A stretch of DNA of 64,000 nucleotides from assembly GCF_036226405.1 (NCBI RefSeq), contig NZ_CP108464.1, positions 4,712,001 to 4,776,000 of the forward strand, read 5' to 3'. Under the pieces are notes generated by a model that worked only from the letters and a program-made list of their open reading frames with translations, was not told where the DNA came from and searched no databases. The position numbers and the translations under genes are program-made. This DNA is from Streptomyces sp. NBC_01260. GTDB lineage: Bacteria; Actinomycetota; Actinomycetes; Streptomycetales; Streptomycetaceae. Below are positions 36,715-46,274 of this stretch, in pieces; the first letter of the stretch is position 1, and the number at the start of each line of letters is the position of its first letter.

Positions 36715-36823
36715 GGAGCGCTTCGCGGCGCTCGGGCAGGCCGCCGCGGCCGGGGCGGCCTGGGTTCCTAGTGCTCTGACCGCAAAGGTTCACCGGTTTG
36801 GGTATCTCCGGCCCTGCACCCGC

Positions 36824-37132
36824 TCAGGAGGCGGTCGTTGTTGCCCAGGTTCGGAACAGGGTGAGGGCCTCGGTGAGGTTTCCGGGACCGCACGCGGCGT
36901 GGAAGGTCTTCTCAGCTATCCAGGTGCGGACCCAGTCCTGCGTGCCGCGGTTGACCTCCTGGAGGTTGTAGTCGCGTCCTTCCAGGTCCGTCTCCGTCAA
37001 ATCGATCTCGATGGTCCAGCCGGGATTGTCGAGCGTGGCAATCTTCACGCCCCACTCGTGCTCCCAGTCGCCGTCGCACTGCTGCGTGTACCAGTTCTGC
37101 AGCCAGTCGAGAAGGGACTCCGAATCGCTCAT
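36824..37132 (-). CDS. Imm53-family immunity protein, carried inside IS element
   Basis: A 102-aa protein matching the Imm53 pattern: LLDWLQNWYTQQCDGDWEHE, WGVKIATLDNPGWTIEIDL, TDLEGRDYNLQEV, DWVRTW and a C-terminal FRTW segment. Imm53 proteins are predicted antidotes in polymorphic toxin systems. No toxin gene is adjacent. The stop lies 24 bp inside the left inverted repeat of IS-A, and the start 69 bp from the divergent transposase ATG. It may be a host-benefit or anti-toxin cargo. ATG at 37132 has no clear ribosome site (the upstream strand is CT-rich), so a leaderless or shared promoter is possible. Confidence 0.82.
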   Translation of the reverse strand: MSDSESLLDWLQNWYTQQCDGDWEHEWGVKIATLDNPGWTIEIDLTETDLEGRDYNLQEVNRGTQDWVRTWIAEKTFHAACGPGNLTEALTLFRTWATTTAS

Positions 37133-37201
37133 GGCAGGAGATGCTAGGCGAGTCGCGCGCCGGGTTCGGGCGGGACTGGTCCGTCCTGCAGGGGAGAAGC
37201 G

Positions 37202-37409
37202 ATGGCGGAACCGGTGCGAGTACGCAGACTGACCGACCAGGAGGGGCAACGACTGCAGCAGATCGTGCGCCGGGGCAGCACCAGCTCGGTGCGCTACCGC
37301 CGCGCGATGATGCTGCTGGCGTCGGCCGGCGGGAACCGGGTGCCGGTCATCGCCCAGCTCGTGGCCGCTGACGAGGACACCGTGCGTGATCTCATCCACC
37401 GCTTCAACG
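37202..37409 (+). CDS. IS-A transposase, exon 1 (interrupted by group II intron)
   Basis: Encodes the first 69 codons plus one base of an IS630 transposase: an N-terminal helix-turn-helix (LTDQEGQRLQQIVRRGSTSS, VRYRRAMMLLASAGG, VPVIAQLVAADEDTVRDLIH, RFN). ATG at 37202 follows GGGAGAAG. The unspliced frame runs only to a TGA at 37420 inside the intron. Joining to 39932 restores GAG-ATC-GGC (E-I-G) and a 373-aa transposase with the DDE catalytic set. Confidence 0.88.
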
Positions 37410-38076
37410 GTGCGACGTGAGGTCGCACATTCCAAGTGAGAGAGGCAAGGGAAGGGAGCCGCTCTTCCGGTCGGTGATCAAGGACCGGTCCCCGACCCCG
37501 GGCGCGACGCTGGTAACGGCGTGGTGCTGAGCCGGGGTAGTTGCTCAAGGAGACTGCGGGGCCACCGCGGACTTACAAGCAGGGGAAGCCCAGCAGGACG
37601 AACGAGAGTGAACCCTTGTATTTACGGCTCGTAAGGTGGACGCCGCGTCTGTGGTCTGTAAACGGCGGCGGAAGGACTGGATGTTGCAAAGCATCAGGCG
37701 GCCTCGGTGTTCGTTATCGCCGAGGCGATGATCACCGCTTGTCCCGGGTCATAGAGGGCGTGCTCGCTGGGTGCAACTTGGATGTGTGGAACACGGTAAC
37801 CCCGTAGTGGTCCGGAGGGTTATCCGGTAAGCCCGAGGCAACGAGGGCCCAACTCCGCTGCGGGAACAGGAAGATTCGAGAAGCGAATGCCGCTGGGGCG
37901 AAAGCTCAGAGGAAAGACCGGATAGACGAGACTTCCCTCGCCGGTTATAACTCGGTGGATACCGGGCCCCGTGCTCGGACCCGAAAGGGTGCAGACGCGA
38001 ATCTGGTGGACCTTTGAAGTGAAACTGAACAGCAACCCGAACAGTGCTGCAAGTTAGATGCAAAGGAGGTGGGAGG

Positions 38077-39858
38077 ATGAGCCGAAAAAATACGTGTGAC
38101 GCCTCGCGCGTCCCGGCAAACGGAGGCATTGACGCGGAACTATCAGCCTACTGGCACAGTATCGACTGGGCCGGGGCTGAACTACGCGTAAGGCAGCTCA
38201 GGCAGCGAATCTTCAAGGCGGCAAATGCTGGAGATCTGAAGAGGGTTCGAAATCTTCAGAAGCTCATGCTGCGATCTCACGCGAACACGTTGGTCAGTGT
38301 GAAGCGAGTGACGCAGACAAGCTCCGGCAAGGCTACGGCGGGGATAGATGGAGAGCGTGCCCTGAATCCGAGGGACCGGGCGAGGCTAGTACGGCAAATA
38401 AGTGCCGAGTCCGGGCTCGAAGTCATGCCCGTCAAGCGTGTATACATCCCTAAGGCCAATGGGAAAGTGCGGCCACTTGGCATTCCGGTGATCCGGGATC
38501 GAGTCCACCAGGCCCGCGTGAAGAACGCGCTGGAGCCTGAGTGGGAGGCACGGTTCGAGGCCAGGAGTTATGGGTTCAGACCGGGCCGAGGCTGCCATGA
38601 CGCGATCGGGTTCATTTTCAATGTGGCCTCGAAGAAGGCGTCCAGGAGGCTCTGGGTGCTGGATGCGGATTTGGCGGCAGCGTTCGATCGCATCAACCAT
38701 GAGCGCCTGATGGAGGCGGTCGGCACGTTTCCCGGGAGGGAGGCAGTCGAGCGCTGGCTGAAGGCGGGGGTGATGGACAGGGGGAGGTTCGCGCCGACGG
38801 AGGAGGGCACTCCGCAAGGCGGCGTGATCAGCCCGTTGCTGCTGAACATCGCTCTGCACGGGATGGCGACGGCTATCGGGGCGGATGTCGACCCGACAAG
38901 TCGGGCGGGCGTAAGGAACCCGCCCCCTGCGCTGGTGAGATATGCGGACGACTTCGCGGTGTTCTGTGCCACGGAGGAACAGGCAGGAAAGGTCAGGAGA
39001 CAACTGGGCCTTTGGCTGGCGCCGAAGGGGTTGGCCTTCAATGACGAGAAGACCCGCGTGGTCCACGTTGATGACGGATTCGACTTCCTCGGATTCAATA
39101 TCCGAAGGTATCAGGGAAAGCTGATCATCAAGCCGAGCAGGGGTGCCGTGGAGAAGGCGCGGCGCAAGATCAAGGAGATCGTCCGGGATGGGCGGGGCGA
39201 GTCGGTGGATTCTTTAATCCGGCAGCTCAATCCTTTCATCAAAGGATGGGCGACCTACTATCGTACCGTTGTGTCAAGTGAGATATTCCATAATCTTGAC
39301 GACTATGTCTTTACCGCCTTGCGGAGGTGGGGCATAGCAGGCCACAGGAACAAAAGCTGGCGATGGATTGCCCACCGCTACTGGGGCCAGTTCAAGAGTG
39401 GCAGCAAGGACAAGTGGGTATTCGGGGATCGCCGTAGCGGCCTCCATGTCCACAAGTTCTCTTGGACCAGGATCAGCAGGCATGTGATCGTCAAGGGCAC
39501 ATCGTCCAAAGATGATCCAATGCTGACCGAATACTGGGCGGCACGGAACCAAAAGCGCGGGTTCCCACAGGCGGACAAGAAGTCTCATGTCTGGCTTGCG
39601 GCGCGACAGAGGGGACTGTGTACCCAGTGCGGGCTGGATCTGGTTGCGGGGGCGGAATACGAGCCCGACAACGTCCGAGAATGGGCGAGATGGTTCGAAT
39701 ACGGCTCCCGTACGCTCAGCGTCCACCAGAAGACGGGCGCAGGTGCCGCTGGCTCCGCTTGGAAGAATCTCGAACTTCTGCACGCCGGCTGCCATCGGCA
39801 GCTCCATGCCGGGAGCCATGAGAATCAAAACAACTGCCGCCCACAGCGGTCTGCTTGA
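38077..39858 (+). CDS. ltrA: Group II intron reverse transcriptase/maturase with HNH domain
   Basis: A 593-aa intron-encoded protein that helps splicing and copies the intron RNA into DNA at a new site. RT domain motifs are RPLGIPVIRDRVHQ, YGFRPGRGCHDAI, DADLAAAFDRINHERL, GTPQGGVISPLLLNIAL and the catalytic YADDFAVF near residue 289. The maturase/X domain follows (KARRKIKEIV, FIKGWATYYR, LRRWGIAGHRNKSW). At the C-terminus an HNH endonuclease has CTQCGLD and HQKTGAGAAGSAWKNLELLH then CHRQLH. ATG at 38077 follows AAAGGAGGTGGGAGG, an almost ideal ribosome site. The stop overlaps the first bases of domain V. Confidence 0.93.
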   Translation: MSRKNTCDASRVPANGGIDAELSAYWHSIDWAGAELRVRQLRQRIFKAANAGDLKRVRNLQKLMLRSHANTLVSVKRVTQTSSGKATAGIDGERALNPRDRARLVRQISAESGLEVMPVKRVYIPKANGKVRPLGIPVIRDRVHQARVKNALEPEWEARFEARSYGFRPGRGCHDAIGFIFNVASKKASRRLWVLDADLAAAFDRINHERLMEAVGTFPGREAVERWLKAGVMDRGRFAPTEEGTPQGGVISPLLLNIALHGMATAIGADVDPTSRAGVRNPPPALVRYADDFAVFCATEEQAGKVRRQLGLWLAPKGLAFNDEKTRVVHVDDGFDFLGFNIRRYQGKLIIKPSRGAVEKARRKIKEIVRDGRGESVDSLIRQLNPFIKGWATYYRTVVSSEIFHNLDDYVFTALRRWGIAGHRNKSWRWIAHRYWGQFKSGSKDKWVFGDRRSGLHVHKFSWTRISRHVIVKGTSSKDDPMLTEYWAARNQKRGFPQADKKSHVWLAARQRGLCTQCGLDLVAGAEYEPDNVREWARWFEYGSRTLSVHQKTGAGAAGSAWKNLELLHAGCHRQLHAGSHENQNNCRPQRSA

Positions 39859-39891
39859 GCCGGATGCGCTTAATGGCGCACGTCCGGTTCT
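39857..39891 (+). ncRNA. Group II intron catalytic domain V
   Basis: GAGCCGGATGCGC (39857-39869) pairs with GCGCACGTCCGGTTCT (39876-39891) around a short TTAATG loop, with the standard two-nucleotide bulge region. This is the catalytic hairpin of group II introns. Domain VI follows directly. Confidence 0.85.
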
Positions 39892-39931
39892 GAGGGGGGC
39901 CCGGCGCAGTAATGCGTCGGGCCTACCCGAC

Positions 39932-40845
39932 AGATCGGCCTGGCCTGCCTGGACCCTCAGTGGGCGGGAGGCCGTCCCCGCCTACTCAACGCTGACGACG
40001 AGGACTTCGTCATCGCGATGGCCACCACCCGCCCGGTCAAACTAGGCCAGCCCTTCACCCGCTGGTCGATCCGCAAACTTGCCGCCTACTTGCGCAGAGT
40101 CCCCGACCGCGTGATCCGCATCGGCCGCGAGGCCCTGCGCATACTCCTGTCGCGACGCGGCGTTACTTTCCAACGCACCAAGACCTGGAAGGAGTCCACC
40201 GACCCGCAACGAGACGTCAAACTGGACCGCATCGAGCACGTTCTGGAGCACTTACCAGACCGTGTTTTCGCGTTCGACGAGTTCGGGCCGCTCGGCATCC
40301 GCCCCACCGCAGGATCCTGCTGGGCGCCACGAAACCGACCCCAGCGGATCCCGGCCACCTACCACCGCACCCACGGCGTCACCTACTTCCACGGCTGCTA
40401 CTCCATCGGTGACGACGTCCTGTGGGGCGTCAATCGCCGCCACAAGGGCGCCGCGCAGTCCCTGGCCGCGCTGAAGTCGATCCGCGCTGCCCGGCCCGAT
40501 GGCGCCCCCATCTACGTAATCATGGACAACCTGTCCGCCCACAAAGGCGCCAAGATCCGGGCCTGGGCGAAGAAAAACCGTGTTGAGCTGTGTTTCACCC
40601 CGACCAACGCCTCCTGGGCGAATCCGATCGAGGCCCACTTCGGGCCCCTACGACAGTTCACCCTGGCCAACTCCCACCACCCGAACCACACGGTTCAGAC
40701 GCGCGCACTGCAGGCATATCTACGCTGGCGCAACACCAACACCCGCCACCCCGACGTCCTCACAGCCCAGCGACGAGAACGCGCCCGAATACGCAGCGAG
40801 AAGGGCATGCGCTGGGGAGGACGCCCCCTCGCCGTCGCAGCATGA
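39932..40845 (+). CDS. IS-A transposase, exon 2
   Basis: Codes for the remaining 304 residues after splicing. It starts AG|ATC GGC CTG, reading GLACLDPQWAGGRPRLLN, and carries all three catalytic acids of an IS630 DDE transposase: Asp in FAFDEFGPLGIRP, Asp in VIMDNLSAHKG and Glu in WANPIEAHFG. No stop interrupts the frame. The C-terminus lies 35 bp inside the right inverted repeat. Exon 1 plus exon 2 gives 1122 nt, 373 aa and stop, the usual IS630 length. Confidence 0.88.
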
Positions 40846-40882
40846 CCTGCAAACCCGGTGAACCTATGCGGTCACAGCACTA

Positions 40883-42298
40883 GTGTGATGCGCCAGAAAT
40901 CCTGATGGTTAGTCAGTACCCTGTTGTCATGTCACATCCCGGCCCTTCTGCTGTGAAGATCACGTTGTCAGGGGAAGAGCGTGCCGAGTTGGTGCGCCGG
41001 ACGGAATGGCCAGACCGGCGCTCGGCCGAGAAGGCTCGGATCCTCCTGGCGTGCGCTGAGGGCATGTCGAACGCGGGTGTCGCACGCGTCGTCGGTGTCC
41101 AGGCCAAGACGGTTGGCAAGTGGCGTCGGGCTTTCGCCGCAGAGCGGATGGCCGGGCTTGAGGACGCCGGCTGGATCGGCCGACCCAAGGCCGACCTGGT
41201 CCTGAACGAGGCTGAGCGGACGCAGCTGACGCAGTGGGCGCGGCGGGCGAAGACCGCTCAGTTCCTCGCGTTGCGAGCCAAGATCGTGCTGCGCTGCGCG
41301 GAGGGCGGGACGAACCAGCAGGCCGCGGCCGACCTCGGCGTCGACAGATCGACCGTGGACCGCTGGCGGGCCCGGTTCATCGCCAAACGCCTCGACGGTC
41401 TGCACGACGAGCCCCGCTCGGGTCGGCCACCCTCGATCCTTCTCGACCAGGTCGAAGAGGTCATCGTGGCCACCCTGGAGTCGACCGCGGGCAGAGACAC
41501 CCACTGGTCACGGGCCTCGATGGCTCAGCGCACCGGCCTGTCGAAGTCGACCATCGGCCGGATCTGGAAGAAGTTCGACCTCAAGCCGCACCTGCAGGAC
41601 TCCTTCAAACTGTCCACCGACCCGCAGTTCGTCGCCAAGGTCGTCGATGTCGTCGGTTTGTACCATCACCCGCCCGAGAAGGCGGTCGTGCTCTGCGTGG
41701 ACGAGAAATCCCAGATCCAGGCCCTGGACCGCTCACAGCCGGTCCTGCCGATGATGCCGGGCATGCCCGAACGCCGGACCCACGACTACTACCGGCACGG
41801 CATCACCAGCCTGTTCGCCGCCTTCAACATCACTGACGGCACCGTCATATCTCAGCTTCACCGCCGCCACCGCGCGATTGAGTTCAAGAAGTTCCTGATC
41901 CGGATCGACAAAGCGGTGCCCGTCGGGCTCGACGTCCATCTCGTCTGTGACAACTACGCCACCCACAACACCGCCGAGATCAAAACCTGGCTGGGCAAAC
42001 ACCCCCGCTTCCACATCCACTTCACTCCGACCGGCTCCTCCTGGATGAACCAGGTCGAGCGGTGGTTCGGCCTACTGACCGACAAGCTCATTCGCCGCGG
42101 CGTCCACAGGTCCGTGAAGGCCCTGGAGGACGACATCACCGCATGGATCGACACCTGGAACGAGAACCCAAGGCCCTTCACCTGGACCAAGACCGCCGAC
42201 GAGATCCTCAACTCCCTCGCCGATTACCTCGCCAAGGTCGGAACCGATAGCCAGCAGACAGGGCAGAACTAACCATCAGGATTTCTGGCGCATCACAC
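40883..42298 (+). mobile_element. IS-B: IS630 element, plus orientation
   Basis: A perfect 31-bp terminal inverted repeat (40883-40913 and 42268-42298) begins GTGTGATGCGCCAGAAATCC. The 1416-bp element holds one intact transposase and is flanked by TA on both sides. An identical copy in opposite orientation is IS-D (44188-45603). Confidence 0.9.
40929..42272 (+). CDS. IS630-family transposase (IS-B)
   Basis: A 447-aa DDE transposase from ATG 40929; an ATG at 40905 inside the inverted repeat would add 8 residues, and neither has a clear ribosome site. The N-terminus holds two similar helix-turn-helix blocks ([20 protein letters not shown] then [20 protein letters not shown]), each with a following VGK/VDRW recognition helix. 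The catalytic core has Asp in [13 protein letters not shown], Asp in [11 protein letters not shown] and Glu in [10 protein letters not shown], in the IS630/Tc1 order. It is longer than most IS630 transposases because of the duplicated helix-turn-helix. It is apparently intact and probably active. Confidence 0.92.
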
Positions 42299-42308
42299 TA
42301 GTGCCGCA

Positions 42309-43441
42309 TCAGGCAACGTTCGCCCTGCTGACGACTTCGCGTAGGCGTTCATGGGTGGCGTGCTTGTTCCGCCAGATTATGTAACGGCGGATCATGCTGC
42401 CCTGGGCCTTGTGGCTGGAATGGTCGGTGCCGTCGAGGGCGAAGTACCGCAGGGCGGTGAACTGGGCCTCGATCCGGTTGAGCCAGGAGCTGTTGGTCGG
42501 GTGTAGGAGATCTCGACATTGTTCGCCGAGGCCCAGGCCCCGACCCGCTGGCACCGTTTCGTCGTCAGGTGCGGTGAGTAGTTGTCGCAGACGATCGCGA
42601 TGCGCACGTCCGTCGGGTGAAGCGAGCGCAGGTAGCGGCAGAACTCCAGGAACTTGGAGCGGTTCTTGGTCTTCTTGATGTGACCGTAGAGCTGGTCCTT
42701 GGCGAGGTCGTAGGCGGCGAACAGGTGCCTCACCCCGTGCGGGCGGGTGTAGGTCGCCCGCCGGCGGGGCCGGGGCTCACGTTTGGGGTCCTTGTGCTGG
42801 CCGCCGCGTTCGGCCCACTGCCGGCCGGGATGAGGCTGGAGATTGAGCGGCCCGAACTCGTCCAGACAGAAGACGACTTCGGGCTCGTCGTCGTCGGGTA
42901 TGACCTCGCCGTCGGCGATCGAGTAGAGGTGCTCGACACAGGCCTTCTTGGCCGCGTAGTCAGGGTCGCGTGAGGTCTTCCAGGTCTTCACGCGTTGAAA
43001 GGAGACGCCTTCCTCGCAGAGCATGATGCGCAGCCCCTCGTGGCTGATCTCGTCGACCACCCCCTCGGCGGCCAGGAAGTCGGCCAGCTTGGCCAGGCTC
43101 CAGGTCGAGAACGGCAGGCCGTGCTCAGCCGGCTTGGACTTGGCAATCTTCTTGATCTCCCGACGCTCGGGCAGCGAGAACGTCCTCGTCCGTCCGCCCT
43201 TGTATTTTGGGTAGAGCGAGTCGAAGCCGCCCGTGTTGAAGTTGTGGATCACATCGCGGACCCGGTCCGCGCTGGTGAACGTCACCTCGGCGATCTTCGC
43301 GACAGGCATGCGCTGGGCGGACAACAGCACCATCTGGGCCCGCCGCCAGGTCACTACCGACGCGGCGCTCCGGCGGACGATCCGCAGCAGCCGCCTGCCC
43401 TCGTCGTCATCGATCTCACGGACCTGCACGCGTTCAGCCAC
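42309..43441 (-). pseudogene. IS630 transposase with frameshift (IS-C)
   Basis: The frame from GTG 43441 gives MAERVQVREIDDDEGRRLLR and a core with Asp in FCLDEFGPLNL and Asp in IVCDNYSPHL. It then leaves the family consensus after EISYT. The family continuation PTNSSWLNRIEAQF, with the catalytic Glu, is in the next frame, which runs on to 42309. Comparison of EISYT-PTNSS with the codons shows one missing C at about 42499-42501 (ACCCGACC instead of ACCCCGACC). The third catalytic residue is therefore out of frame. No slippery sequence is visible, so this is most likely a dead copy or a sequencing error. Confidence 0.85.
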
Positions 43442-43527
43442 GTGATTATTCTGACTGCCCGCTTCCAGACCATGCCGGGCCGCAGACCTGGCTGCTGACG
43501 GTTCAGAAGAAGAGGCAAAATGGAATC

Positions 43528-44046
43528 ATGGATGCTGGGATCGCCGCGCTACTCGGCGCCGCCGTAGGTTCTTTCGCCACCATCGGCGCGGCGATGGTGA
43601 ACGGGCGTGCTACCGCACGCTCGCAGTTTCGCCAGTCGCGTAGGCAGCATCGCAGGGACGCCTACGCGAACTACCTCGGTGCTCTTCACGATCGAGACAT
43701 CGCCATGGACGCGGTGTTGGGCGCACTCCAGCCAGGGACTCCTGACCTGCTGGATGTGGACGAGAAGGTCCACCGTTTCGTCGAGCTGGCGCGGGACGTC
43801 CACCGTGCCGTTGAAGTTGTCAGTCTTGAAGGTCCGCCTTCGATAGTGGAAGCGGCCGACCGTGTGGCTCACGCATCCGGCGACCTCTCCAACGTGATGC
43901 GGCGCATGGTGAAGAACGCCCATTCAGGAGACTCCTCCCAGAAGGTGGTGGACACCGCTCTCGCCGCCGAGCGAGAGCACGCCCTCTACCAGGCCGTGAA
44001 GGGCTTCCGCGCGGCAGCTGGCGATGTCCTCGGCAATGCGAACTGA
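43528..44046 (+). CDS. IS-C passenger protein, unknown function
   Basis: A 172-aa protein with one N-terminal membrane helix (AGIAALLGAAVGSFATIGAA), a basic stretch (RSQFRQSRRQHRRDAYANYL) and a helical domain (HRFVELARDVHRAVEVV and AADRVAHASGDLSNVMRRMV). No family is recognised. It starts 86 bp from the divergent transposase start and lies wholly inside IS-C, so it travels with the element. ATG at 43528 has GAGG about 14 nt upstream. A 112-bp stretch (44047-44158) between its stop and the inverted repeat shows no gene. Confidence 0.75.
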   Translation: MDAGIAALLGAAVGSFATIGAAMVNGRATARSQFRQSRRQHRRDAYANYLGALHDRDIAMDAVLGALQPGTPDLLDVDEKVHRFVELARDVHRAVEVVSLEGPPSIVEAADRVAHASGDLSNVMRRMVKNAHSGDSSQKVVDTALAAEREHALYQAVKGFRAAAGDVLGNAN

Positions 44047-44187
44047 CCACTCCGTCCTTGCGCCACCAGGGCGACACGCCTCACAACGGTGCAATTCGGC
44101 ATGGTCCGGTCACCAGGTCAATGCCGTCCAAACACGGCAACCGGGCAACACGTCACGACAGGGCGAACGTTGCCTGATGCGGCACTA

Positions 44188-45603
44188 GTGTGATGCGCCA
44201 GAAATCCTGATGGTTAGTTCTGCCCTGTCTGCTGGCTATCGGTTCCGACCTTGGCGAGGTAATCGGCGAGGGAGTTGAGGATCTCGTCGGCGGTCTTGGT
44301 CCAGGTGAAGGGCCTTGGGTTCTCGTTCCAGGTGTCGATCCATGCGGTGATGTCGTCCTCCAGGGCCTTCACGGACCTGTGGACGCCGCGGCGAATGAGC
44401 TTGTCGGTCAGTAGGCCGAACCACCGCTCGACCTGGTTCATCCAGGAGGAGCCGGTCGGAGTGAAGTGGATGTGGAAGCGGGGGTGTTTGCCCAGCCAGG
44501 TTTTGATCTCGGCGGTGTTGTGGGTGGCGTAGTTGTCACAGACGAGATGGACGTCGAGCCCGACGGGCACCGCTTTGTCGATCCGGATCAGGAACTTCTT
44601 GAACTCAATCGCGCGGTGGCGGCGGTGAAGCTGAGATATGACGGTGCCGTCAGTGATGTTGAAGGCGGCGAACAGGCTGGTGATGCCGTGCCGGTAGTAG
44701 TCGTGGGTCCGGCGTTCGGGCATGCCCGGCATCATCGGCAGGACCGGCTGTGAGCGGTCCAGGGCCTGGATCTGGGATTTCTCGTCCACGCAGAGCACGA
44801 CCGCCTTCTCGGGCGGGTGATGGTACAAACCGACGACATCGACGACCTTGGCGACGAACTGCGGGTCGGTGGACAGTTTGAAGGAGTCCTGCAGGTGCGG
44901 CTTGAGGTCGAACTTCTTCCAGATCCGGCCGATGGTCGACTTCGACAGGCCGGTGCGCTGAGCCATCGAGGCCCGTGACCAGTGGGTGTCTCTGCCCGCG
45001 GTCGACTCCAGGGTGGCCACGATGACCTCTTCGACCTGGTCGAGAAGGATCGAGGGTGGCCGACCCGAGCGGGGCTCGTCGTGCAGACCGTCGAGGCGTT
45101 TGGCGATGAACCGGGCCCGCCAGCGGTCCACGGTCGATCTGTCGACGCCGAGGTCGGCCGCGGCCTGCTGGTTCGTCCCGCCCTCCGCGCAGCGCAGCAC
45201 GATCTTGGCTCGCAACGCGAGGAACTGAGCGGTCTTCGCCCGCCGCGCCCACTGCGTCAGCTGCGTCCGCTCAGCCTCGTTCAGGACCAGGTCGGCCTTG
45301 GGTCGGCCGATCCAGCCGGCGTCCTCAAGCCCGGCCATCCGCTCTGCGGCGAAAGCCCGACGCCACTTGCCAACCGTCTTGGCCTGGACACCGACGACGC
45401 GTGCGACACCCGCGTTCGACATGCCCTCAGCGCACGCCAGGAGGATCCGAGCCTTCTCGGCCGAGCGCCGGTCTGGCCATTCCGTCCGGCGCACCAACTC
45501 GGCACGCTCTTCCCCTGACAACGTGATCTTCACAGCAGAAGGGCCGGGATGTGACATGACAACAGGGTACTGACTAACCATCAGGATTTCTGGCGCATCA
45601 CAC
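44188..45603 (-). mobile_element. IS-D: IS630 element, minus orientation, identical copy of IS-B
   Basis: The same 31-bp inverted repeats at 44188-44218 and 45573-45603 and an identical 455-codon frame, inverted relative to IS-B. IS-B and IS-D bracket IS-C and could act as a composite unit or recombine to invert it. Confidence 0.9.
44214..45557 (-). CDS. IS630-family transposase (IS-D)
   Basis: Protein sequence identical to that of IS-B over its whole length, including the tandem helix-turn-helix N-terminus and the DDE residues, so the copy is very recent or kept uniform by gene conversion. The start is taken at ATG 45557 to match IS-B; ATG 45581 is in frame. Its end is 26 bp from the left inverted repeat of IS-D. 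Confidence 0.92.
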
Positions 45604-46274
45604 TAGTTGGTCGTGTGCGTGGGGTAGACCTGAACGTCGGTGTAGGCGCCCTTGATCTCCCCCGCGCCCGCGGGCCACTTCAGGCTCACGGTGTGGGTCT
45701 CGTTCGGGGGCGTCACCAGGATGTTGGTCGGGTCCGCGAGGCTGTTACCGCTGTTGTCGATGTCGTAGGCGAGGTTGAAGACAGCGGCGTCGCCGGGCTT
45801 CAGGGTGGTGATGCGCGGCTGGGCGTGGCCGCGCTCGATGGGGTTCGAGGTGTTGTCGGCGTCCTTGATGTCGACACCCGCGAAGCCCGTCGCCGAGCAG
45901 GTGGTCGAACCCCGGTTGATCATGGTGATGTCGATCCTGCCGGACTCCTCGTCGGGCGCGGCGTCCATGGCATCGATGGCCAGGTCCTCCGTCTTGCAGA
46001 ACGTGGTCTTGCCGCCGGTCGTCGTCGCGCCGTTCGCGCCGTTCGCGGCGGCGCGGGACTCGGTGTCCTCGCCGGAGCCCGACTTCGCGCTGCCGGCCTC
46101 CGAGCCGCCCTCCGACTTCGAGCCACCGCCCGAGGACGAAGAATTCGAGGACGAGGCGGACGAGGAGCCCTTGGCGGACGAGTCCTTCCCGGAGCCGTCG
46201 TTGCCACAGGCGGTGAGCGAGAGGGTGGCGACGACCCCGATGGCGGCGAGAGCGGTGATGCGGGTGTACTTCAT
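45603..46274 (-). CDS. DUF4232-type lipoprotein with Ser/Gly-rich linker
   Basis: A 223-aa lipoprotein. Signal peptide with lipobox LSLTAC at residues 18-23 (Cys23 lipidated), then a long Ser/Gly/Asp/Glu linker (about 26-85). The C-terminal beta-sandwich is of the DUF4232 type (CKTEDLAIDAMDAAPDEESG, RGSTTCSATGFAGVDI, VTPPNETHTVSLKWPAG), with Cys residues placed for a disulfide. The function is unknown. The stop TAG overlaps the TA shared with IS-D, so the insertion array sits in the stop codon but keeps it. The upstream 307 bp (46275-46581) hold its promoter and no gene I can support. Confidence 0.82.
   Translation of the reverse strand: MKYTRITALAAIGVVATLSLTACGNDGSGKDSSAKGSSSASSSNSSSSGGGSKSEGGSEAGSAKSGSGEDTESRAAANGANGATTTGGKTTFCKTEDLAIDAMDAAPDEESGRIDITMINRGSTTCSATGFAGVDIKDADNTSNPIERGHAQPRITTLKPGDAAVFNLAYDIDNSGNSLADPTNILVTPPNETHTVSLKWPAGAGEIKGAYTDVQVYPTHTTN

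Follow-up and report, generated by a model that had tools for sequence, protein, structure and literature searches.

The window analysed here, a 64,000-nucleotide stretch of the Streptomyces sp. NBC_01260 chromosome (contig NZ_CP108464.1, positions 4,712,001 to 4,776,000), contains two insertion sequences (IS) of the IS630 type, IS-A and IS-C, each carrying a gene besides that of its transposase (Table 1). Very probably, they represent two related IS630 lineages of Streptomyces and its kin that usually carry one captured host gene, the capture taking place by way of an extra outer inverted repeat (IR). The unit formed by outer IR, gene, transposase gene and IR is found at unlike sites with the same borders; the gene can lie on either side of the transposase gene, and immunity families of polymorphic toxin systems recur in the cargo. 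We infer the capture route and the protection of the host.

In both elements, an earlier note on this DNA had seen a single non-transposase gene between one IR and the transposase start and divergent from the transposase gene, and this arrangement is confirmed, as are the gaps of 69 bp in IS-A (imm53 to transposase start) and 86 bp in IS-C (P0002 gene to the start at 43441, minus strand). The passenger of IS-A is, as proposed there, an Imm53 immunity gene: its product matches the profile and has the conserved W, WE and PGW, which were matched by eye against PMC3482391. The passenger of IS-C, P0002, has no match in Pfam or NCBIfam and has a single hydrophobic N-terminal stretch (19-residue mean 1.86), which suits its previous label of membrane-helix protein. 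The two transposases are indeed related, with 41% identity over query residues 2-198, and both the IS-A 3’ exon and IS-C score above the NF033545 cut-off for IS630 transposases. The DDE_3 model is matched above its cut-off by IS-A and by L214, an intact IS-A transposase relative of 373 amino acids, and below it by the frameshifted IS-C frame; in locus L181, a relative of the IS-C transposase is a single open frame of 377 amino acids. IRs ending in CTAG are found in IS-A, IS-C and most listed relatives. The IS-A pair is 32 nucleotides long and 91% complementary, and the IS-C termini, at 42298 and 44188, read ctagtgccgcatcaggcaacgttcgccct.

By comparison, the passenger moves with the element, since copies lie at different sites and end at the outer IR. 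The IS-A unit is present without its intron at another site in genome G204, from another species of the same genus (locus L196), where 36768-37409 is matched at 100% and 39932-40883 at 99.9%; the match ends at the IR tips and the bases outside differ. In Streptomyces acidiscabies, an Imm51 unit is shared by L077 with L078 and with L079 (1658 bp, 100%) to within 1 bp of both CTAG ends. Further pairs are L060/L061 from one strain (2016 bp, 99.8%, to the outer ends), L029/L067 from two species (2207 bp, 93.6%, end to end) and L053/L055 (1945 bp, 100%).

The relatives of IS-A comprise the best 80 of at least 534 confirmed GTDB stretches, and the loci, ranked by transposase match, were thus not selected for their cargo. 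Their ends were searched with CTAGTGCTSTGACC, allowing up to 2 mismatches at the 5’ end and up to 1 at the 3’ end. Both ends are found in 69 of the 80 loci, with a near 5’ and a far 3’ end in 52, both near in 11, a far 5’ and a near 3’ end in 3, and both far in 3; the other 11 lack one or both ends, and three of these have a far 3’ end. The 3’ threshold matters here, since L042, L050 and L073, which have a near 3’ end with 2-3 mismatches, are counted as incomplete and may be bare. Extra DNA, normally a gene, lies inside the outer ends of 60 of the 69 complete elements. These are 58 elements with more than 150 bp of extra DNA, plus L047 and L058, which have an inner end and also an outer end past the cargo (imm53 in L058, a shortened gene resembling that of L066 in L047). 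L018 and L020 are doubtful, being perhaps bare elements with an unrelated outer end, and without them 58 loaded elements remain. Nine elements are bare, including five from one genome (L086-L090) and L057, which lies beside an assembly gap; the nested ends that L057 seemed to have were rejected, since N at both junctions points to an assembly join, and it is kept among the nine.

A second set, not wholly independent of the first, consists of 20 of 25 listed plasmid loci, among 1927 matching records. Extra DNA lies inside the outer ends in 19 of the 20; a far end is present in 17 (L254 needing 2 mismatches for it), while L252 and L255 have, besides an inner end, an outer one past an Imm51 gene, the stretch of L255 lacking a 5’ end. 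The remaining locus, L263, is bare. The counts of both sets rule out bare elements as the norm. The closest relatives are mostly loaded, not bare as would have refuted the earlier note, and similar transposases have different genes beside them, which supports the subfamily with interchangeable cargo that the note had suggested. The 14-base IS-A end motif, with up to 1 mismatch, has 191 matches in 100 IS-A-type loci (673 kb) against 1 for the reversed motif, which rules out chance IR pairs.

The cargo slot had been placed beside the transposase promoter, which is too narrow because the cargo of IS-A relatives lies mostly 3’ of the transposase (3’ only in 52 of the 69 complete elements) and imm53 is found on both sides. 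In 36 of 54 downstream slots, the main open reading frame (ORF) and the transposase gene converge, and in 49 this ORF fills 60% of the slot or more. Elements with imm53 on the 5’ side (U) and on the 3’ side (D) are interspersed in the Imm53 tree, with at least 2 changes for U and at least 3 for D; L096 and L058, identical over 3300 bp, are one imm53 element in these counts. Comparing L196 (U) with L198 (D), the IR-imm53 module keeps its direction and the transposase unit beside it is inverted, an inner CTAG marking the break, and L091 and L096 differ by the same inversion. In the IS-C sample, the 5’ side is the commoner (7 of 9, the window included). L070 has cargo on both sides, a metallophosphatase gene 5’ and a CPT-like gene 3’, and identical 32-base ends.

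The cargo of the IS-A relatives falls into 44 clusters by blastp. Leaving out four doubtful clusters (L018, L020, the 3’ side of L044, and L046), 40 ORFs were scanned against Pfam, namely 39 cluster representatives and L058, and 28 of them match at E <=0.001, some below Pfam’s own cut-off. Immunity families account for 5 of the 40: Imm51 (L036), CdiI_3 (L017), SUKH-4 (L043), SUKH_6/SMI1 (L054, below cut-off), and Imm53 (L058), the last being found by tblastn also in L013, L044, and L091. Other cargo includes chloramphenicol phosphotransferase-like, APH (two), GNAT (three), methyltransferase, S66 peptidase, pentapeptide repeat, NADAR, hydrolase and OMP decarboxylase genes and more. Immunity genes are present in 5 of the 20 plasmid loci by annotation or tblastn (Imm51 in L252 and L255, Imm53 in L262 and L247, MafI in L266), beside DUF6368, GNAT and maleylpyruvate isomerase-like genes. 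The background amounts to 158 SMI1_KNR4 matches in 31 genomes, Imm51 in 2 of 61 genomes and Imm53 in 23 of 199. Assuming some 7500 genes per genome, 5 of 40 is far above this background, which covers SMI1_KNR4, Imm51, and Imm53. In a Pfam control on flank genes (90 of 149), none of the 25 families listed, out of 116, is an immunity family, so that single matches may occur in the rest. Immunity or resistance-like genes are frequent in the cargo, which agrees with the possible antitoxin or host-protective role that the earlier note had considered for it.

Cargo changes fast between close relatives. Among pairs with cargo, those with at least 95% transposase identity share it in 10 of 11 cases, against 5/205 at 90-95%, 8/885 at 85-90%, 8/723 at 80-85%, and 0/6 below 80%. 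Without L018, L020 and L046, the same bins give 10/11, 5/192, 8/817, 8/627, and 0/6, and with one copy per genome in addition, 5/6 at 95% or more and 4/167 at 90-95%. The sole close pair with differing cargo is L030 (APH) and L036 (Imm51), with 96.7% transposase identity; L031 and L046 are scored as different owing to an unsuitable ORF chosen for L046.

The smaller IS-C sample behaves like the IS-A relatives. The IS-C end pattern occurs in at least 105 of 198 genomes, and of the 20 regions picked, 15 have two ends at a distance of 0.5-2.9 kb (L176-L190; closer pairs were passed over) and 5 are single-ended. Eight of the 15 have a transposase gene or pieces of one together with cargo, five have an ORF and no transposase match, and two are decayed (L187, L189). 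The cargo lies 5’ of the transposase in L176, L177, L178, L179, L181, L190 and the window, and 3’ in L180 and L183; it includes a dehydrogenase with a TetR regulator (L176), a glyoxalase, a hexapeptide protein, GNAT, SUKH-1 and others. A protein search gave copies in 5 of 61 genomes, and the five loci examined are L183 again (as L227), a truncated transposase between two ends (L231) and three single-ended loci. P0002 has 18 relatives at 59% identity or more and one partial relative (G011) in other genomes, and there is no IS-C end in the stretches examined around the 18. The nearest, L117, matches 43504-44087 at 89%, which gives the extent of the captured stretch, and has no IS-C end inside the flanks examined.

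The proposed capture would begin with an IS that sits or inserts at a CTAG beside a gene whose far side bears another IS end, which could come from a decayed second copy, a transposase-less cassette or a solo IR. The transposase would then use the far end, so that the gene is enclosed; decay of the inner IR would fix the cargo, and cargo directed against the toxins or antibiotics of rivals may be retained by selection. Capture by means of a second IS end followed by inner decay would fit because of the traces of inner IRs, the transposase remnant in L064, the transposase-less cassettes and the occurrence of both transposase orientations. Traces of an inner 3’ IR exceed the 99% level of the control in 15 of the 58 downstream-cargo elements, a minority, so inner IRs are rejected as a general feature. 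In L064, a second copy of the transposase survives near the outer IR in its final 58 residues (83%).

This remnant also agrees with composite transposons, in which a gene is carried between two IS copies and the cargo unit is what remains of the pair, as do the inverted IS-B copies around IS-C in the window, a block that is present twice. A second IS-A-type transposase match (E <0.01) is absent, however, from the other 57 downstream-cargo segments. A composite pair as a route of origin is part of the capture explanation itself, and as the present form of the elements it fails nearly everywhere, which makes this alternative unlikely. That the extra genes are chance neighbours between unrelated IS ends, the true elements being bare IS units, is highly improbable. 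It would accord with the inner 3’ ends that have up to 3 mismatches in L034, L047, L058, L063, L066, L071, and L075 and up to 2 in L252, L255, L256, and L265, with the bare form found five times in one genome (L086-L090, at equal end distances, L086 and L087 sharing 1244 bp at 100%) and with L018 and L020, which may be bare, but the homology of copies spans the gene and reaches the outer CTAG (L196 and the window, L077 with L078 and L079, L060/L061, L029/L067), copies with identical outer borders occur at unrelated sites, and chance alone hardly ever yields the end motif. A third view takes the cargo for helpers of the element, such as regulators or addiction genes, instead of host protection; the TetR regulator beside the dehydrogenase of L176 would suit it, but the cargo varies widely (44 clusters, including four doubtful ones) and the ORFs scanned have no common regulatory family, so this is very unlikely.

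Several observations weigh against capture of host genes through an outer IR. No inner IR exceeds the 99% control level in 43 of the 58 downstream-cargo elements, and of the 15 with traces, only four score like true ends (L034, L020, L063, L064) and three are copies from the same genome; IS-A of the window, L013, L044, L091 and L070 have no scoring left IR on the inner side, and L064 alone of the 58 has a second transposase remnant. The L078/L079 alignment (99.6%) extends about 20 bp past the right end, beside 2 bp past the left, the contig of L053 ends at its right border, and L047 has a shortened gene only. In the window, neither of the two transposases is clearly intact, and no exact empty site was found for it, its two flanks having their matches at separate places in other genomes. 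Within about 1500 bp of 13 of the 27 closest Imm53 loci there is neither an IS-A end nor a piece of the transposase, and L122, a chromosomal P0002 relative, has an IS-A-type end 0.8 kb away. Among the 40 cargo ORFs, 12 lack a Pfam match, and ordinary enzymes make up many of the others. The evidence for transposition is comparative.

A mobile insertion cassette holds a passenger between IS ends. Such cassettes are IS-derived and have no transposase of their own (PMC3129680), as is the case for five single-ORF cassettes with IS-C ends (L182, L184, L185, L186, L188); IS-A and IS-C differ in that they keep a transposase gene, interrupted in the former and frameshifted in the latter. IS copies with passenger genes unrelated to transposition are described as transporter IS (PMC3129680, PMC9330008), and the window elements agree with them in having such a gene within the IR pair. 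Unlike those, cargo is the rule in the present IS630 lineages, changes fast and is often an immunity gene of polymorphic toxin systems. The earlier note had mentioned the lack of a standard description of IS630 elements with such a cargo slot; IS with passenger genes were already described, and no IS630 lineage like this is named in the accessible parts of these two papers. Members of IS630 have single transposase genes (PMC2170065), or one or two ORFs in about 1250 bp (PMC11092175). ISY100, of the same family, transposes by cut-and-paste into TA, and PMC2170065, which describes it, also cites a paper whose title names TA in CTAG as the preferred target of an IS630-associated transposon. IS-A and IS-C share with the IS630/Tc1/mariner group the DDE_3 transposase, the NF033545 match and the TA inside CTAG at the ends, and differ by the added host gene. 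In Bacteroidales, acquired interbacterial defence clusters on mobile elements contain orphan immunity genes that protect against the toxins of rivals (PMC10470768). Orphan immunity genes on mobile elements are common to both cases, but there they form arrays and here each small transposon has one, with a putative protective role. IS630 elements with such cargo in Streptomyces were not found in the literature searched, which misses most subscription journals, and the accessible parts of PMC7335449, PMC9208149, PMC11092175, and PMC7371123 do not mention any. The kind of element is thus already known, and the scale, turnover and immunity cargo look new.

It is quite conceivable, if somewhat short of probable, that the lineage constitutes a single-gene capture-and-exchange system in soil actinomycetes, in which a gene between the element and a second IS end is enclosed, spread between species and swapped, orphan immunity genes being selected. 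This would provide a minimal way of acquiring immunity, similar to integrons, would explain the spread of orphan immunity genes without their toxins and would offer a simple natural system for gene acquisition by a transposon. Passenger genes are usually seen as additions to a simple IS plan, whereas in this lineage they are the norm, replaceable and often immunity or resistance-like, and many hypothetical or GNAT neighbours of Streptomyces IS630 transposases may be mobile cargo.

At E <=1e-30, 392 genomes contain 27 Imm53 loci, 14 of which have an IS-A end or an IS-A-type transposase piece in the stretch examined. In a tree of 42 rows, the 32 IS-linked and orphan rows stand apart (89/95, not starred) from the other 10, to which the five RHS-linked rows belong. 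Distant Imm53 genes adjoin ORFs with HINT domains (L104, L108) or, in L110-L112, RHS-repeat ORFs with weak Ntox24 matches (E 1.7e-3 to 2e-4, below cut-off). Imm53 is listed with the Ntox24 and Ntox10 toxins (PMC3482391). The imm53 copy of the window resembles these immunity proteins in its PF15580 match and differs in being carried by an IS with no toxin gene inside, and it may be an orphan immunity gene against toxins of the RHS-Ntox24 type.

Table 1. Features of the IS-A, IS-B and IS-C region (positions in the window)
Feature	Position	Strand	Basis
IS-A, entire IS630-type element with imm53 cargo, CTAG to CTAG	36768..40883		IR pair; intron-free copy elsewhere
IS-A left (outer) inverted repeat	36768..36799	+	IR search
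imm53 cargo gene, 102 amino acids	36824..37132	-	PF15580, E 5.8e-33 (Pfam)
IS-A transposase, 5’ exon	37202..37409	+	Start 37202; intron-free copy; L214
Group II intron inside IS-A transposase gene; first bases GTGCG, last CTACCCGAC	37410..39931	+	Borders set by intron-free copy L196
Group II intron reverse transcriptase/maturase	38077..39858	+	TIGR04416, E 1.8e-100; RVT_1, RVT_N, GIIM; ATG start from sequence
IS-A transposase, 3’ exon	39932..40845	+	DDE_3, E 2e-14; NF033545, E 1.2e-34 (both for 40018-40845)
IS-A right inverted repeat	40852..40883	-	IR search
IS-B copy 1, IS630 type, no cargo	40880..42301	+	ORF and profile searches
IS-C, entire IS630-type element with one cargo gene	42298..44188		IR pair; end-pattern matches at both ends
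IS-C left inverted repeat	42298..42327	+	IR pair
IS-C transposase, frameshifted, two frames (42392-43441 and 42309-42554)	42309..43441	-	ORFs; NF033545
Captured segment in IS-C	43504..44087	+	Matched at 89% by L117, a chromosomal stretch from another Streptomyces
IS-C cargo gene P0002, 172 amino acids	43528..44046	+	ORF; no Pfam family
IS-C right inverted repeat	44159..44188	-	IR pair
IS-B copy 2, in the opposite orientation to copy 1	44185..45606	-	Repeat comparison

The borders of the group II intron are known because an intron-free IS-A copy is available for comparison, and an RF00029 match (39855-39931) lies at its 3’ end. The same intron is also inside a second IS-A relative of this genome (L010), where an ORF 3’ of the transposase begins like the SnoaL-like cargo of L062, the starts alone being compared. 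IS-A, IS-B, IS-C and the second IS-B adjoin each other at common CTAG sites. With IS-B, which has no cargo, as negative control, two lineages only are concerned. The two inverted IS-B copies bracket IS-C, and the resulting block (40880-45606) is present twice in the chromosome (4760 bp, 99.9%), the second copy being at L009 5005-9762. In L240 and L242, a pair of IS-B copies stands head to tail with one CTAG in common. In genomes G125 and G172, IS-C-like ends form numerous short IR pairs, in many cases with a spacing of about 170 bp (G125 has 35 matches in each direction), which resemble miniature inverted-repeat transposable elements.

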